Of a stretch of 64,000 nucleotides of DNA, positions 49,015-56,340 are shown piece after piece. The stretch lies in assembly GCF_001552785.1 (NCBI RefSeq), contig NZ_KQ959507.1, forward strand, positions 1-64,000. The letters are read 5' to 3'. Origin of the DNA: Atopobium deltae. GTDB lineage: Bacteria > Actinomycetota > Coriobacteriia > Coriobacteriales > Atopobiaceae. Within the stretch, counting starts at the first letter, position 1, and each line of letters starts with the position of its first letter. The position numbers and the translations under genes were made by a program. The notes below the pieces were generated by a model. That model was not told the DNA's origin. It did not search any database and saw nothing but the letters and a program-made list of their open reading frames with translations.

Positions 49015-50337
49015 TTACGATGGATTTTCGAGCATAAAGGGTTCAAGCAGTTCTAGAAGTTTTTGCGAGATGCGTATTGTGGCCATAAAGCCCTGCTGCT
49101 GATAGTCTTCGCGAATGATCTGTGCCTGTTGGCGCACCATGTGCACAAGCGCTGTTTTATCGTACGGGATTAAGACGGTAATGAGCGCTTCACCTTGCGT
49201 TGCGGCCTGTGAAATGCGATAGCTCAGTGTGTCAAGGCCACGACGCTCTTGCGCCGAAATGTAAACCGCATCGGGATAACGCGCCTGCAGATCAGCAAGT
49301 TCATCATCGATTAGTAGATCAATCTTGTTGAAAACAACAATATATGGTATCTGATCTGCGTTTATCTGCTGCAATACCTTGCTTACCGCCTCAATTTGTG
49401 CAGCCACCTGTTTGTCGTGAGCGTCGGCCACCAACAAAATCAAATCCGCATTTTGGACTTCCAATAAGGTCGACTTAAACGCTTCAATAAGCGTGGTGGG
49501 AAGTTTTTGAATGAAGCCAACCGTGTCGGTCAGCGTAATTTTGCGCCCTTCGGAAAGTTCGCATGAGCGAGTGGTGGGATCAAGCGTTGCAAATAATTCA
49601 TCTTTTGCATATACCTCGGCACCAGTTAGCGCATTGAGCAGCGTTGATTTTCCAGCGTTGGTATAGCCCGCCAAAGCCACACGCCATACGCCCGAAGCCA
49701 GTCGTGCTTTTGCTTGCACCGCGCGACGACGATTGAGCGTTTCCAGATCTTGTTTCACTTTGGCAATACGCTTGCGAACAAGACGTCTATCAACCTCAAG
49801 CTGGCTTTCGCCTTGGCCAAAACGGCTACCGATGCCGCCACGTGTCTGCTCCTTGGCAAAATGACTCCACATGCCTCGCAGGCGCGGATACATATATTGT
49901 AGCTGTGCAAGCTGGACCTGCAAACGTCCCGCCTGAGCAGTGGCATGCACGGCAAAAATATCCAAAATAAGCGCCGTTCGATCGATAACCTTCACCGATT
50001 TCCCTAAGCATTTTGAGAGATTTGCTTGCTGAGAAGGGGTAAGTTCATCATCAAAAACCACGACCTGCGCCTCAAGACGCTCCACCAAGCCAAGAAGTTC
50101 GTCGACTTTACCCGAGCCAATAAACGTCTTTGCAAATGGTGTAGGTACATTTTGCGTAAGACGCCCCACGACCTGCGCACCATCCGTCTCGACTAGGCGG
50201 GCAAGCTCCGCAAGCGACTCTTCAAGAGTCCAAGCGCTCCCCATAAGCCTGTCCTTCTCGGTACTTACGCCAACGAGAATGACGCGCTCTTTTTCGGGTG
50301 CTGTCGGTTGTGGTTTGTAGCGACCTTGCTTTCCCAT
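49015..50337 (-). CDS. hflX: Ribosome-associated GTPase HflX
   Basis: 440 residues. N-terminal HflX domain with VVFDDELTPSQQANLSKCL and DRTALILDIFAVHA, a coiled-coil with GGIGSRFGQGESQLEVDRR, and the GTPase with GYTNAGKSTLLNAL, DTVGFIQ and NKIDL. HflX splits stalled or hibernating ribosomes under stress. Follows miaA on the - strand after 3 bases. Confidence 0.94.
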   Translation of the reverse strand: MGKQGRYKPQPTAPEKERVILVGVSTEKDRLMGSAWTLEESLAELARLVETDGAQVVGRLTQNVPTPFAKTFIGSGKVDELLGLVERLEAQVVVFDDELTPSQQANLSKCLGKSVKVIDRTALILDIFAVHATAQAGRLQVQLAQLQYMYPRLRGMWSHFAKEQTRGGIGSRFGQGESQLEVDRRLVRKRIAKVKQDLETLNRRRAVQAKARLASGVWRVALAGYTNAGKSTLLNALTGAEVYAKDELFATLDPTTRSCELSEGRKITLTDTVGFIQKLPTTLIEAFKSTLLEVQNADLILLVADAHDKQVAAQIEAVSKVLQQINADQIPYIVVFNKIDLLIDDELADLQARYPDAVYISAQERRGLDTLSYRISQAATQGEALITVLIPYDKTALVHMVRQQAQIIREDYQQQGFMATIRISQKLLELLEPFMLENPS

Positions 50338-50340
50338 ATT

Positions 50341-51405
50341 TCATCGCTCACGTTTCTGTAATGCTGGTTGTGACGCGATCTGCGCTGCTAGCAGTGGCGC
50401 ATCGTGCGTCGAAAGATACGTCGTTATTTGCTCTGCAATTTGCGCTGCTGCTTCATCGACGGTCTTCTCGTCAAGCGAAATCCAAAGAATGCGCGCATCC
50501 CGCCTTAACCAGGTCATTTGGCGTTTTGCAAGACGGCGCGTGTTTCGTTTGATAAGATTCCGTGCTTCAGCAAAACTAATGGTGCCATCCAATGCATCGA
50601 GAATTTCTTTGTAGCCAATCGCCTGCGAAGCGGTTTTTGACTGACGAATATTATGCGCATCAAGCCTGCGAACCTCATCGACTAAGCCCTGCTCAAACAT
50701 CTGATCCACGCGAGTATTAATGCGCTCATAGAGCCGCGCTCGGTCGAGGTTCAAACCAAAAAGCAGCGCGGGATAGTACGGCGTATGCTTATGCAGCCCC
50801 TGATTAATCTGTGCATACGAGCGACCCTCGTCACAATATTCCAGCGCTCGAATCACACGTTTTGTATTGTTGGGATGAATCAACGCAGCGCTTGCGGGAT
50901 CTTTGCTGAACAACAGTGCATGCAGCGCTTCTACACCGTTTTGGTCGAGAAACTCGGTGTATTTTTGACGAGAAGAGCTGGTAAAATCCCCTGCAGGAAA
51001 CTCCATCACATCAATGGCCGCATTGAGGTATAGACCCGTTCCCCCGCACAAAATGGGCAGCGTTTTTTGTGCACGATGTGCATCAATACAGCGGCGCGTC
51101 TGCTGTTGGAAGAGCTCAGCGGAATAATTTTCATGCGGGTCGGCCACATCAATCATCTCGAGCGGCACCAAGCGTTGCGAAACAGGAGTTTTAGCTGTGC
51201 CAATGTCCATGCCACGATACACCTGCGCTGCGTCGGCCGAAATAACGGATGTTGCAAACCGTTGCGCGAGCTTCTCGGCCACGGCAGTTTTACCCACCGC
51301 AGTTTGTCCCACGATGCATACGACGGGCAACTGCTCAGCAAGCGGCTGCGATTCGACGGTCTTCTCGCCAGCGAGCGCTTGCGTCGAAACGCTGGAAAAA
51401 CTCAT
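50341..51405 (-). CDS. miaA: tRNA dimethylallyltransferase
   Basis: 354 residues. Adds a dimethylallyl group to A37 of tRNAs reading U-starting codons; MiaB then methylthiolates it. P-loop GQTAVGKTAVAEKL, SADAAQVYRGMDIGTAK, GGTGLY, and the late RRLAKRQMTWLRRD. An extra 25-residue leader precedes the P-loop, and its DNA carries a copy of the repeated word GGTCTTCTCG. Start overlaps the miaB stop (ATGA). Confidence 0.95.
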   Translation of the reverse strand: MSFSSVSTQALAGEKTVESQPLAEQLPVVCIVGQTAVGKTAVAEKLAQRFATSVISADAAQVYRGMDIGTAKTPVSQRLVPLEMIDVADPHENYSAELFQQQTRRCIDAHRAQKTLPILCGGTGLYLNAAIDVMEFPAGDFTSSSRQKYTEFLDQNGVEALHALLFSKDPASAALIHPNNTKRVIRALEYCDEGRSYAQINQGLHKHTPYYPALLFGLNLDRARLYERINTRVDQMFEQGLVDEVRRLDAHNIRQSKTASQAIGYKEILDALDGTISFAEARNLIKRNTRRLAKRQMTWLRRDARILWISLDEKTVDEAAAQIAEQITTYLSTHDAPLLAAQIASQPALQKRER

Positions 51406-52772
51406 CGAGGCTGCCCAATCATGGGCCCGCGCAAATACCAGGTGCGCGCTTCGTCAACGCGGACGTTTACAATTTTGCCGATAAGATCGGTCGCTTGCAT
51501 CGTTTCGGGCAAACCAAAATGAACAGTTTGATTTTTTTGGCTGTGCCCCACCAAGACCTTATCGTCAGCCTTAGAAATGCCTTCTACCAGCACTTCTGTG
51601 ATATGGTGCAAATCTTTTTGATTCGCTTTATACGAAAGATCACTCACAAGCTCGGCCAAACGCTCAAAGCGATCCTGAATGCACTCGTGCGAAGTGTCGT
51701 CAGCAATTCTTGCGGCGGGCGTGCCAGGGCGTTTGGAATAAATGAAGGTGTAGGCAGAGGAAAATCCAACCTGTTGCACGAGCGAAAGCGTTTGCTCGAA
51801 GTCCTCCTCCGTCTCGCCTGGGAACCCGACGATAATATCCGTCGAAAGCGCAATATCGGGTATGGCAGTGTAAATCGAATCAACGAGGTACAAAAAATCC
51901 TCGCGCGTGTAGCGGCGATTCATGCGCCGCAAAACCTTGGTGGAACCACTTTGCACCGCCAAGTGCAGATGAGGCATGACCGCTGGCGTTTGAGCCATAG
52001 CTTCAATGGTCTGCTGCGACAAATCCTTGGGGTGTGACGAGGTAAAACGCAGACGCTCAACGCCCGTTTGCCCCACGCGTCGCAACAGCTCAGCAAAACG
52101 GGGCTCTCCATAGCGATTGCGTCCGTAGGAATTGACGTTTTGTCCGAGTAGCGTAATTTCGCGCACGCCGTCGTGCACCAAATGTTCAGCTTCAATCAGG
52201 ATGTCCTTCATATCGCGGCTACTTTCGCGTCCGCGCACATACGGAACGATGCAAAAAGTGCAAAAGTTATTGCAGCCCGTCATGATGGGCAACCATGCAT
52301 GAAATGCCTGTGCACGATTGCTGGGCAAGTCTGTCGAGAAACCCTCGTAAGCTTCTTCGGTATCGGCATAGACGGTGCTGTGGTCATCGGCAGCGTAGGC
52401 CTCATTTAGTAGCTGCGGAAGGTGCTGAATAGCTTGCGTACCAAAGACGACATCCACGTTGGGAATTTGATCACGCAGCCGCTCTCCATCGCGCTGAGCA
52501 ATGCAGCCGCCAACAGCAATAACGCGTTTTCCCGCGGCGGGTACAGGGGCACTTTTGAGTGAGGAAACCTGACCATACAAGCGGATATCTGCTTTTTCGC
52601 GAACGCAGCAGGTCATAAAAATATTGGTATCGGCGTCCTCCATGCTGGAGGCTTCATTCATGCCGATGGAGTCCAAAAGACCGCTGACACGCTCGGAATC
52701 GTGCAGGTTCATCTGGCAGCCAAAAGTTTTAATGGCATAGGTTTTGCCGATAAGGGCAGGAAAATCACTCAT
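51402..52772 (-). CDS. miaB: tRNA methylthiotransferase MiaB
   Basis: 456 residues, radical-SAM enzyme adding a methylthio group to i6A37. N-terminal UPF0004 domain with cluster cysteines (TFGCQMNLHDSE, CCVREKAD, VGGC), radical-SAM CNNFCTFCIVPYVRGRE, and a C-terminal TRAM domain. miaB-miaA-hflX is one operon. Confidence 0.96.
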   Translation of the reverse strand: MSDFPALIGKTYAIKTFGCQMNLHDSERVSGLLDSIGMNEASSMEDADTNIFMTCCVREKADIRLYGQVSSLKSAPVPAAGKRVIAVGGCIAQRDGERLRDQIPNVDVVFGTQAIQHLPQLLNEAYAADDHSTVYADTEEAYEGFSTDLPSNRAQAFHAWLPIMTGCNNFCTFCIVPYVRGRESSRDMKDILIEAEHLVHDGVREITLLGQNVNSYGRNRYGEPRFAELLRRVGQTGVERLRFTSSHPKDLSQQTIEAMAQTPAVMPHLHLAVQSGSTKVLRRMNRRYTREDFLYLVDSIYTAIPDIALSTDIIVGFPGETEEDFEQTLSLVQQVGFSSAYTFIYSKRPGTPAARIADDTSHECIQDRFERLAELVSDLSYKANQKDLHHITEVLVEGISKADDKVLVGHSQKNQTVHFGLPETMQATDLIGKIVNVRVDEARTWYLRGPMIGQPR

Positions 52773-52843: not shown

Positions 52844-53203
52844 CTATGCGCTAGTCGCAGACGTATCTGCAGACGTCGCCACTGCGGCCGCAGTGGGCGT
52901 AGTTGTAGCAGTAGCTACAGCGTCAAGCACGGGATTCATAATGCGATGCACATAAACAGCAATGCGAATAGCCGTGCGACTCTCACCCCCAATAGAAATA
53001 TCCGAAAACGTGGGTGCACACGAAATATCAACACCAGTTGGAATTAAAAACCCTCGTGCAATAGCAAGTGCTTTAATGGCTTGGTTTACGGCGCCAGCTC
53101 CAACACACTGCATATTAACAGGGGTTCCATCATTAACCATGCCCGCAATAGCGCCGGCAACAGACGCTGGGGACGACTTACTCGATACTTTAAGGAACTC
53201 CAT
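52844..53203 (-). CDS. SpoVS-family protein with extended tail
   Basis: 119 residues. The first 88 closely follow stage V sporulation protein S: MEFLKVSSKSSPASVAGAIAG, GAGAVNQAIKALAIARGFL, GGESRTAIRI. SpoVS is an Alba-like small protein acting in sporulation in Bacillus and found near rny in many Gram-positives. Here a 30-residue Ala/Thr-rich tail is added. No sporulation genes are in the window and Coriobacteriia do not sporulate, so its role is something else, perhaps RNA binding. GGAGAG precedes the ATG. Confidence 0.9.
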   Translation of the reverse strand: MEFLKVSSKSSPASVAGAIAGMVNDGTPVNMQCVGAGAVNQAIKALAIARGFLIPTGVDISCAPTFSDISIGGESRTAIRIAVYVHRIMNPVLDAVATATTTPTAAAVATSADTSATSA

Positions 53204-53321: not shown

Positions 53322-54494
53322 TTAATCGGTCTTATCGACCGTAAAAGTCACGCTAATTTTATTTTTCGAGACACGAATTTTGGGTGTATCACACAGGGTC
53401 AGATAATAGCGTTGAGTCAAAAAGTCAAAATCCTTTTCGAGCAGGCGAGAAAATCCCTCGAGGTCGTCTTTGGATACTTTGAGCCCGCGCCAGTCTTTGC
53501 ACAAATCAACCTCGTACGGCTCGCTTGTCTCGGACGTACGTGTCAGTTGCGCCAAAACGTTGCGCTGCGGCTTGATTTGACCAGCTAAAATACGGTGCGC
53601 CGTGCGCTCAGAAATGTATAAGCCCAGCGATGCTGCCACCTGCTTCAGATCAAGCGCATCGGCCGCAGCATATATCCTTTGCAGCACGGGAAGTTTATCC
53701 AGATCATCAACGAACAAAAATTGAGACGTGTCGATGTCTGCGGCTATGCGATGACGAATGGTGGCGATAATTTCGGCGGGTGACGCAAGGTACAGCTTCA
53801 CCTCATGCTTCGTGTCGAGCGCAAACTCGCAGCACTCGCGAATAATGTTGTGAGGTCCACGCACCAACACCTGCTCGTTATTATCGTCTATACCAAGCTG
53901 TGGCCAAGTCGATTGATCCGCGCGCTCGGGCAGCTTGTTGGTGTCACTAGCAATATACAGCGAGGTGCCCAGTCCCGTATCCGAACTCATTACCCGTGCT
54001 TCCTGCGCATTTTCCCTAATGGAATACAGCGCCATACCGCGCCCGTGAATTCCCCAGCGATCCATATGCACGGAATCGAGCTTTGAGGTGACACGCGCGT
54101 CAAAAATCCGTTCGTGCATATCCGCAGGGATGCCCTGGCCATCGTCGAGCATGGCAATACTGCGGCAGCTACCGTCTTTGGTTGTCGCAAGATAAATGTG
54201 CGTTGCGCCAGCGTCACGTGCGTTGCGGAGCATCTCGACGATAATGTCCTCGGTGCAGCGAATGTCGTGCTTAGCCTGGCGACGCTCGGCCTCCCCTACG
54301 CGAAGACGGACAAAGCCCTCGCCAAGATTTTCTTCAACGCGCAAGGTCTTATCGCCCGAAACTGCTTCTACAAAGTCGAGAAGATCGCTTGTGTCGACAC
54401 TCGCGTTAGCACTAGTGTCTCTGCACGCAACAGCATCATGGATGCCACTTGCGATAGCACCAGCTTGATTGTCTGTATGGACGTCTTCTGACAT
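53322..54494 (-). CDS. GHKL ATPase protein of unknown function
   Basis: 390 residues. A Bergerat ATP fold is clear: N box E87-M-L-R-N91 ARDAGATHI, G1 DDGQGIP (117-123), G2 GIHGRGMAL (148-156) and GLGTS near 174. No histidine-kinase H box, receiver or membrane helix. The C-terminal 200 residues hold a possible helix-turn-helix (LKQVAASLGLYISERTAHRILAG, about 287-310) and a mixed alpha/beta end. Arrangement is closer to Hsp90/MutL/MORC-type or chaperone-like ATPases than kinases. It starts 3 bases after rny, and spoVS, miaB, miaA and hflX follow, so an RNA-related job is plausible. No family name known to me. Confidence 0.78.
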   Translation of the reverse strand: MSEDVHTDNQAGAIASGIHDAVACRDTSANASVDTSDLLDFVEAVSGDKTLRVEENLGEGFVRLRVGEAERRQAKHDIRCTEDIIVEMLRNARDAGATHIYLATTKDGSCRSIAMLDDGQGIPADMHERIFDARVTSKLDSVHMDRWGIHGRGMALYSIRENAQEARVMSSDTGLGTSLYIASDTNKLPERADQSTWPQLGIDDNNEQVLVRGPHNIIRECCEFALDTKHEVKLYLASPAEIIATIRHRIAADIDTSQFLFVDDLDKLPVLQRIYAAADALDLKQVAASLGLYISERTAHRILAGQIKPQRNVLAQLTRTSETSEPYEVDLCKDWRGLKVSKDDLEGFSRLLEKDFDFLTQRYYLTLCDTPKIRVSKNKISVTFTVDKTD

Positions 54495-54497
54495 GGC

Positions 54498-56078
54498 TTA
54501 TTTTGCAACGTCGACAGCACGAGATTCACGGATGACAACGACGCGAACCTGACCAGGATATTGAACCTCTTCTTCGATTTGCTGGGCAATATCGTGGGCC
54601 AAAACGGTTGCTTCAGCGTCGGAAATCTTCTCGGGCTCAACCATAACATGCAGCTCACGACCTGCCTGCATGGCGTAGGTGCGCTCAACACCGTCATGCG
54701 CGTTCGAAATGGTTTCGAGCTTCTCAAGACGCTTGATGTACATCTCGGCGGATTCGCGACGGGCACCAGGACGTGCTGCCGAAACAGCGTCGGCTGCCTG
54801 TACGAGCATGTCAAACACAGTATTCGGCTCAATGTCGGCATGGTGCGCTTCGATTGCGTGGACCACTTCGGGACGCTCGCCATATCGACGGGCAAAATCG
54901 GCACCGATGACGGCATGGGGGCCCTCAACCTCATGGTCGATAGCCTTACCAATGTCGTGCAAAAGACCAGCGCGCTTGGCAATAACGGGATCAACACCCA
55001 GTTCAGAGGCCATAAGGGCTGCTAGTTCGCCAACCTGTACACAATGTTGTAGCACGTTTTGTCCGTAAGAGGTGCGATAGCGAAGTTTACCCAGAATTTT
55101 AATAATCTCGGGGTGGAAGTCATGAATACCACTGTCGAATGCCGCCTGTTCACCCGCTTCTTGCACGCGCTGGGCAACGAGCTCCTCAGCCTTTTTGTAC
55201 ATCTCTTCAATGCGTGCAGGATGAATGCGTCCATCAGCAATAAGGTTCTCGAGCGTAACGCGAGCGGTCTCGCGACGCACGGGGTCAAAGCTGGAAAGCA
55301 CAACGGTTTCGGGCGTGTCATCGATCACGAGCGAGACGCCTGAAATTTGCTCAAAAGTGCGAATATTGCGCCCTTCTCGACCAATAATACGGCCCTTTAA
55401 ATCATCGGAAGGAATGTGCACGGTTGTGACAGTAATGTCTCCCGCTTGATCTGCGGCGCAGCGCTGAATGGCAGTCGATAAGATCTCGCGCGCTGTTTTT
55501 TCGGCCTCGGCACGTACACGCATCTCGGAATCACGCAGGATCTGCGCTTCTTCTTTAACGCTTTGCTTACGCACTTTCTCGAGCAATTCCTTGTGTGCAT
55601 CATCGGTCGATAAGGTCGCGATGCGCTCAAGTTCGGCTGTTTGCTTAGCGATAACTGAGTTGAGGTCATTGCGTCTGCGATCGAGCTGGCCCTGCAAACT
55701 GGAAAGCTGATGCTCGCGTTTATCGAGAGCATCATTGCGACGATCAAGCGATTCCTCGCGCTGCATAATGCGATTCTCCATGGAATGAAGCTCGTGTTTG
55801 CGCTGGCGATTCTCTTGTTCAGAGGCTTGTTTGAGTTTTAAGATTTCTTCTTTTGCTTCGAGGAGTGCTTCCTTTTTGGTGGTTTCGGCTTGACGAGCAG
55901 CGTCTTCTCCAATTTTTTTAGCACTAACCTCTGCGTTTTTTACTTGTTCTTCGGCACTTTTAATTTGCGCGTTTGCAGCTTGGACGCGCGCCGAATGGGC
56001 ACTGTTTGAGAAGAAATAGGCAATAGCTGCACCTACAGATAGGCATACTACGCCAATAAGAATAGAAAGAAGGTCCAT
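54498..56078 (-). CDS. rny: Ribonuclease Y
   Basis: 526 residues. A membrane-anchored endoribonuclease starting mRNA decay. One N-terminal membrane helix (LSILIGVVCLSVGAAIAYFF), a long coiled coil (about 25-200), a KH domain (IIGREGRNIRTFEQISGV) and an HD domain with LLHDIGKAIDHEVEG. ATG 56078 has GGAG 6 bases upstream. Confidence 0.96.
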   Translation of the reverse strand: MDLLSILIGVVCLSVGAAIAYFFSNSAHSARVQAANAQIKSAEEQVKNAEVSAKKIGEDAARQAETTKKEALLEAKEEILKLKQASEQENRQRKHELHSMENRIMQREESLDRRNDALDKREHQLSSLQGQLDRRRNDLNSVIAKQTAELERIATLSTDDAHKELLEKVRKQSVKEEAQILRDSEMRVRAEAEKTAREILSTAIQRCAADQAGDITVTTVHIPSDDLKGRIIGREGRNIRTFEQISGVSLVIDDTPETVVLSSFDPVRRETARVTLENLIADGRIHPARIEEMYKKAEELVAQRVQEAGEQAAFDSGIHDFHPEIIKILGKLRYRTSYGQNVLQHCVQVGELAALMASELGVDPVIAKRAGLLHDIGKAIDHEVEGPHAVIGADFARRYGERPEVVHAIEAHHADIEPNTVFDMLVQAADAVSAARPGARRESAEMYIKRLEKLETISNAHDGVERTYAMQAGRELHVMVEPEKISDAEATVLAHDIAQQIEEEVQYPGQVRVVVIRESRAVDVAK

Positions 56079-56340
56079 AATCAGCTCCAAGAGAGTTAAA
56101 GTAAGAGAGTTCTGGAATCAGTTTGGGCAAACTGAACCCGTCAAAAGAGCACCTCGGACCGTATGCTTCAGGTGTTGTTAATATACATATCTATAAAAAA
56201 TACTATATAAAACGTCAACCTATGGCAGACGTAAGTAAACTCAAGTGACTGTACTATCGTATTGAGATATACACATCTTGTCAAATTATGAGGCCTAAAA
56301 TACATGTTGAAACTTATAACTTCATGAAGTCTATTAAAAA

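Follow-up and report, generated by a model that had tools for sequence, protein, structure and literature searches.

A GHKL ATPase gene kept beside rny in Coriobacteriia and other Actinomycetota encodes a candidate regulator of RNase Y

What is a gene for a GHKL ATPase doing directly behind the gene for ribonuclease Y? In many bacteria bulk mRNA decay begins with RNase Y, whose restraint and targeting are still an open question. To our knowledge no GHKL ATPase has been described that acts with an mRNA-decay nuclease, and our literature search found no paper that connects RNase Y to GHKL ATPases, to Coriobacteriia, or to YmdB and SpoVS. The gene studied here lies in a 64,000-nucleotide stretch of Atopobium deltae DNA (the window), at 53322..54494 on the minus strand. 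It encodes 390 amino acids and is supported by its open reading frame, by Pfam and by class-wide orthologues, although the public annotation reads simply "ATP-binding protein" and databases name just a MutL-like ATPase domain, so that the first-pass annotation was right in calling it an uncharacterised GHKL ATPase.

Around it, the window has the order recA-recX-rny-GHKL-spoVS-miaB-miaA-hflX, with all genes from rny through hflX on the minus strand: rny (54498..56090; TIGR03319, E=1.3e-208), spoVS (52844..53203; PF04232, E=6.7e-34), miaB (51402..52772; profile match and synteny), miaA (50341..51405) and hflX (49015..50337), the last two from profile matches. The coordinates of the gene and the five neighbours named by the first-pass annotation were recovered from the ORF, Pfam and TIGR03319 analyses; recA and recX, upstream of rny, were missing from its operon list. 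The genes are tightly packed, with gaps of 3 bp (rny-GHKL), 118 bp (GHKL-spoVS), 71 bp (spoVS-miaB) and 3 bp (miaA-hflX), and with a 4 bp overlap of miaB and miaA. The ATG of the GHKL gene stands 3 bp past the rny stop (junction AAA TAA GCC ATG), and in relatives the gap often measures -23 to +15 bp; from this short distance we infer that translation of the GHKL protein is coupled to that of rny. There was no terminator-like match between rny and spoVS on that strand, in a scan that did not rise above chance counts, and the promoter-like site upstream of rny (56256..56284, minus strand; TTGACA-17-TACGAT) is a consensus match only, likewise not above the chance count. These neighbours agree with the single operon proposed earlier, but its description as wholly RNA-directed was overstated for SpoVS, for which an RNA role is not established. 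In the SpoVS of the window the 83-residue Pfam domain is followed by a C-terminal tail, some 36 residues long and rich in Ala and Thr.

The N-terminal part of the protein is a predicted Bergerat-fold ATPase domain (residues 66-186; 53937..54299, minus strand), modelled by AF2 mostly at pLDDT 74-98 (83 for the full-length model) and matched by Foldseek to MutL N-terminal domains at E 1e-6 to 1e-5. Two Pfam families, HATPase_c (E=1.1e-7) and HATPase_c_3 (E=1.9e-6), score above their curated cut-offs, covering residues 82-173 only. The domain holds an N-box, E87-x-x-x-N91 (54222..54236), a G1 box, D117-D-G-Q-G-I-P (54126..54146), delimited from orthologue alignments, and a G2 box that closes the ATP lid, G148-I-H-G-R-G-M-A-L-Y-S-I (54018..54053), all on the minus strand. 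E87xxxN91, D117-x-G119-x-G121 and G148-x-H-G-R-G-M-A-L are invariant in 30 Coriobacteriia orthologues, and an alignment of 81 sequences drawn from three deep groups (Coriobacteriia, other Actinomycetota and Rubrobacter-type genomes) shows E87 in 80 of them and N91 and D117 in every one. With N-box, G1 (DxGxG) and G2 motifs set in a Bergerat fold, the protein is, judging from alignment and model, a GHKL ATPase with a complete, hydrolysis-type site. The position of E87 is that of the general base in MutL, and because of this the protein should hydrolyse ATP. The Rubrobacter-type orthologues (loci L182-L194) have another ATP lid, TSRH..., and HGAGL in place of HGRGM.

Neither a histidine kinase nor MutL fits. 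A sensor histidine kinase was ruled out, since no HisKA/DHp phospho-acceptor domain was found in any of the 30 orthologues, nor any Pfam domain beyond the HATPase matches, and the NCBIfam histidine-kinase score is sub-threshold; a full ATP site with no kinase dimer domain is also what the first-pass annotation had described. The MutL/Mlh N-terminal ATPase comes first both in the PDB profile search (E=6e-8) and in the fold search with the AF2 model (E=1.3e-6), and shares with our protein E-x3-N, DxGxG, the TSK-L lid and G-x-x-G-x-x-L-x-S-I. However, only the ATPase domain aligns well in either search (some 100-150 residues), the full-length MutL equivalog score is 36.4 bits against an NCBIfam cut-off of 180, and the GHKL protein differs from MutL in lacking the DNA-repair endonuclease part, in having another C-terminal half and in sharing an operon with rny.

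The C-terminal half (residues 187-390; 53322..53936, minus strand) is predicted to contain a beta-beta-alpha-beta-alpha segment, a helix-turn-helix (HTH)-like segment and a C-terminal long helix with four strands. Modelled alone it reaches pLDDT 86, with no fold match in PDB or BFVD at E<=0.001 and no Pfam or PDB sequence match. The HTH-like segment (residues 270-312; 53559..53687, minus strand), delimited from the alignment and sub-threshold Pfam matches, carries the motif S295-x-R297-x3-R301, in which S295 and R301 are kept in 81/81 and R297 in 80/81 orthologues of the three deep groups. The C-terminal half of the Rubrobacter-type orthologues is shorter, yet retains Q194, N216, S295, R297 and R301. 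This segment could make the protein a regulator that binds DNA, such as the promoter of the rny operon, or structured RNA; its GHKL domain would then sense ATP or the energy state, and its tie to rny would be one of autoregulation. The HTH-like order of helices 280-289 and 296-303 in the model, the near-invariant arginine motif, the weak resemblance to HTH_17, HTH_31, LacI and Tc3 HTH, and a small local structural match to a phage protein (2.2 A over 52 columns) all point that way; against this, every HTH match falls below its cut-off, the C-terminal half finds no PDB fold, and the mean net charge of the segment over the orthologues is about 0. We consider such a regulator rather unlikely. Nucleic-acid binding by the C-terminal half, also suggested by the first-pass annotation, is by itself possible on this sequence and model evidence, the HTH resemblance speaking for it and the missing net positive charge against.

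A MORC-like clamp, the other function put forward earlier, did not survive. MORCs and paraMORCs are defined by a GHKL plus an S5 domain (PMC2292703), and our protein resembles them in its HATPase_c_3-type GHKL domain followed by an unusual C-terminal extension. It is not a MORC, because no S5 domain was found: residues 187-390 gave no S5-fold match at E<=0.001 and no PDB sequence match, although a strongly modified S5 could escape such searches. In contrast to those systems, the gene has no restriction-modification neighbours and is a vertically conserved core gene rather than a sporadic one. A defence system or mobile gene was likewise rejected, with no PADLOC match, no phage match and a sole plasmid match to a Collinsella record that carries the chromosomal gene block.

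All 173 good-quality genomes of the Coriobacteriia class sample gave a match; one of these, in G258, is a PhoR-like histidine kinase, so all but one carry the gene. The family sample had it in 116 of 121 genomes, and the five absences are probably assembly gaps, because rny too is absent from four of these genomes and is truncated by the end of the contig in the fifth (G067). Across the phylum (297 genomes) the family was found in 119 and RNase Y in 209. Every carrier but one has rny (118/119), the exception, G501, ending at a contig edge where rny would lie, while 91 genomes have rny and no GHKL gene; the dependence therefore runs one way, from the GHKL gene to rny. Within Actinomycetota, then, the gene is confined to genomes with RNase Y and shows genetic linkage to rny. 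On the RNase Y tree its distribution needs at least nine changes and is best read as that of an old gene with repeated losses, lateral transfer being the alternative. The Rubrobacter-type form (group f33, which we take to be Rubrobacteria) is diverged and about 310 aa long, still between rny and miaB. Outside the phylum, chromosomes of Listeria, Acetoanaerobium and Fusobacterium gave weak matches in the ATPase domain only, in long frames of 603-714 aa that are not orthologues.

The first-pass annotation had proposed conservation of the neighbourhood across Coriobacteriia as a check, and absence or displacement of the gene in most relatives as its refutation. Instead, the gene is nearly universal, and all 53 Coriobacteriia loci examined have it immediately behind rny and in the same orientation, so the arrangement of the window is not due to chance. 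All 40 loci from other Actinomycetota show this arrangement too (in one, L165, the contig ends within rny). The gene on the other side is more variable: spoVS comes next in 49/53 Coriobacteriia loci and in 21/27 of other Actinomycetota, but never in the 13 loci of the Rubrobacter type, and it is not next to the GHKL gene in families f4, f6 and f42. Where spoVS is displaced (L108, L110, L125 and the Rubrobacter type), or miaB is, the GHKL gene stays beside rny, and distances to spoVS, miaB, hflX and recX vary or these genes vanish altogether. Since adjacency to rny is kept where spoVS is absent from the locus, the linkage is to rny rather than to spoVS, and of the earlier picture of a gene locked between RNase Y and SpoVS only the first half holds. 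This also weighs against the idea that SpoVS or another neighbour is the target of a serine kinase or anti-factor of the SpoIIAB/RsbW kind, which was suggested by the common superfamily and by spoVS as the usual next gene. The best sequence and fold matches are to MutL and not SpoIIAB, the protein has an additional 200-residue C-terminal half, and it is not a SpoVS-specific kinase because its gene persists without a neighbouring spoVS; we regard this reading as highly improbable.

The block itself is ancient. Bacillus has the order recA-rny-ymdB-spoVS-tdh-kbl-miaB, in which the place of the GHKL gene between rny and spoVS is taken by that for YmdB (a TIGR00282 metallophosphoesterase), an enzyme unrelated to the GHKL protein. 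Among rny-bearing Actinomycetota that lack the GHKL gene, the slot is empty or filled by another gene; in four loci (L196, L201, L204 and L212) rny and miaB flank a gene resembling PHP-domain phosphoesterases, which in several of them comes right after rny, and in Bacilli (L219) the phosphoesterase gene ymdB occupies the equivalent slot. Because the recA-rny-x-spoVS-miaB order is so ancient, linkage can persist by inheritance alone, and the GHKL protein might be a housekeeping ATPase of unrelated role (DNA repair, tRNA modification or translation) kept in place with its block. Consistent with a neutral neighbour of this kind, the block is common to Bacilli, rny is fully conserved where the GHKL gene is absent, and we found no rny-specific rate co-evolution, the partial correlation of GHKL rates being 0.13 with rny versus 0.43 with miaA. 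Such neutrality has difficulty with an adjacency to rny that is kept while the rest of the neighbourhood moves or disappears, and with the near-complete dependence on rny in the phylum sample. We give it a small but real chance.

Two further observations concern the rny-GHKL pair. In the window and 55 other Coriobacteriia loci the two genes share a frame separated only by the rny stop, and 59/118 are in frame versus 1/3 expected, although the sampled loci are not independent. Readthrough of the stop would yield an RNase Y-GHKL fusion protein, but this arrangement is not conserved, since in half of the loci the frames differ or more stops intervene, and the stops are ordinary TAG or TAA, which makes such a fusion barely credible. 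The second is the exceptional G258, a 1.4-Mb genome of family f2 (presumably Eggerthellaceae), in which rny and spoVS stand about 240 bp apart with only the GHKL gene gone between them (L152, G258:C1:1012000-1031500). This is a clean natural deletion. Of the eight genes compared, rny has changed fastest there (ratio 2.07), but accelerated RNase Y evolution after the loss was set aside, a single genome proving nothing and the rate being unconvincing because recA follows closely (1.85) and the locus also showed no recX, lexA or hflX.

The likeliest explanation, which we hold at about even chances from the linkage, is that the GHKL protein is a dedicated partner of RNase Y, an ATP-gated dimeric regulator that changes its assembly or specificity. 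Hydrolytic-type GHKL proteins such as MutL, GyrB and Hsp90 work as ATP-gated dimers. The protein would be made from the rny transcript by coupled translation, ATP binding would probably cause it to dimerise as those proteins do, and the dimer switch would alter either RNase Y assembly at the membrane or the choice of RNAs cut, while the C-terminal half may touch RNase Y, nucleic acid or both. There is precedent in Bacillus, where the accessory factors of the Y-complex (RicT/YaaT, RicA/YmcA and RicF/YlbF) alter RNase Y assembly and specificity (PMC7029143, PMC10470536) and bind the enzyme (PMC10470536), whose activity depends on them. The likeness is one of proposed role only, those proteins being unrelated to ours, without an ATPase and not linked to rny. 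A RicT/YaaT (PSP1) family protein was found in 39/40 Coriobacteriia genomes and the YlbF/YmcA family in 0/40, which, with hydrolytic GHKL dimers and the Bacillus precedent, favours an ATP-dependent RNase Y factor. However, YlbF is likewise missing from the Thermus, Thermotoga and Bacteroides controls, which do have rny and PSP1, so that its absence is no special argument, and a GHKL protein standing in for YlbF/YmcA is suggestive only. PSP1 (RicT/YaaT; G000:C5:81520-81774) occurred in the six control genomes that have RNase Y and in no other control, which suggests that the general companion of RNase Y is RicT rather than YlbF/YmcA. RNase Y is also kept without the GHKL gene in G258 and many other Actinomycetota, which tells against a dedicated partner, as do the missing rny-specific rate signal and the great age of the gene block. 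As for the ATP-driven factor in RNA decay proposed at the outset, its linkage to rny proved firm well beyond Coriobacteriia, and a role in decay is what that linkage may suggest.

Overall, a C-terminal half without a described fold and an obligate link to RNase Y within the searched genomes would mark a new GHKL family, and its members are strong candidates for RNase Y regulators. More tentatively, and with somewhat less than even confidence, they may form a new ATP-driven family that remodels RNase Y in Coriobacteriia, Rubrobacteria and other deep lineages of Actinomycetota, each protein being a GHKL switch through which ATP would set the assembly state of RNase Y or its choice of targets. 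The proposal is directly testable, since the gene is single-copy, belongs to the core genome, hardly ever occurs without rny and is present in Olsenella-type bacteria and in common gut genera, Collinsella among them; if true it would put a name to the many proteins now annotated only for binding ATP.
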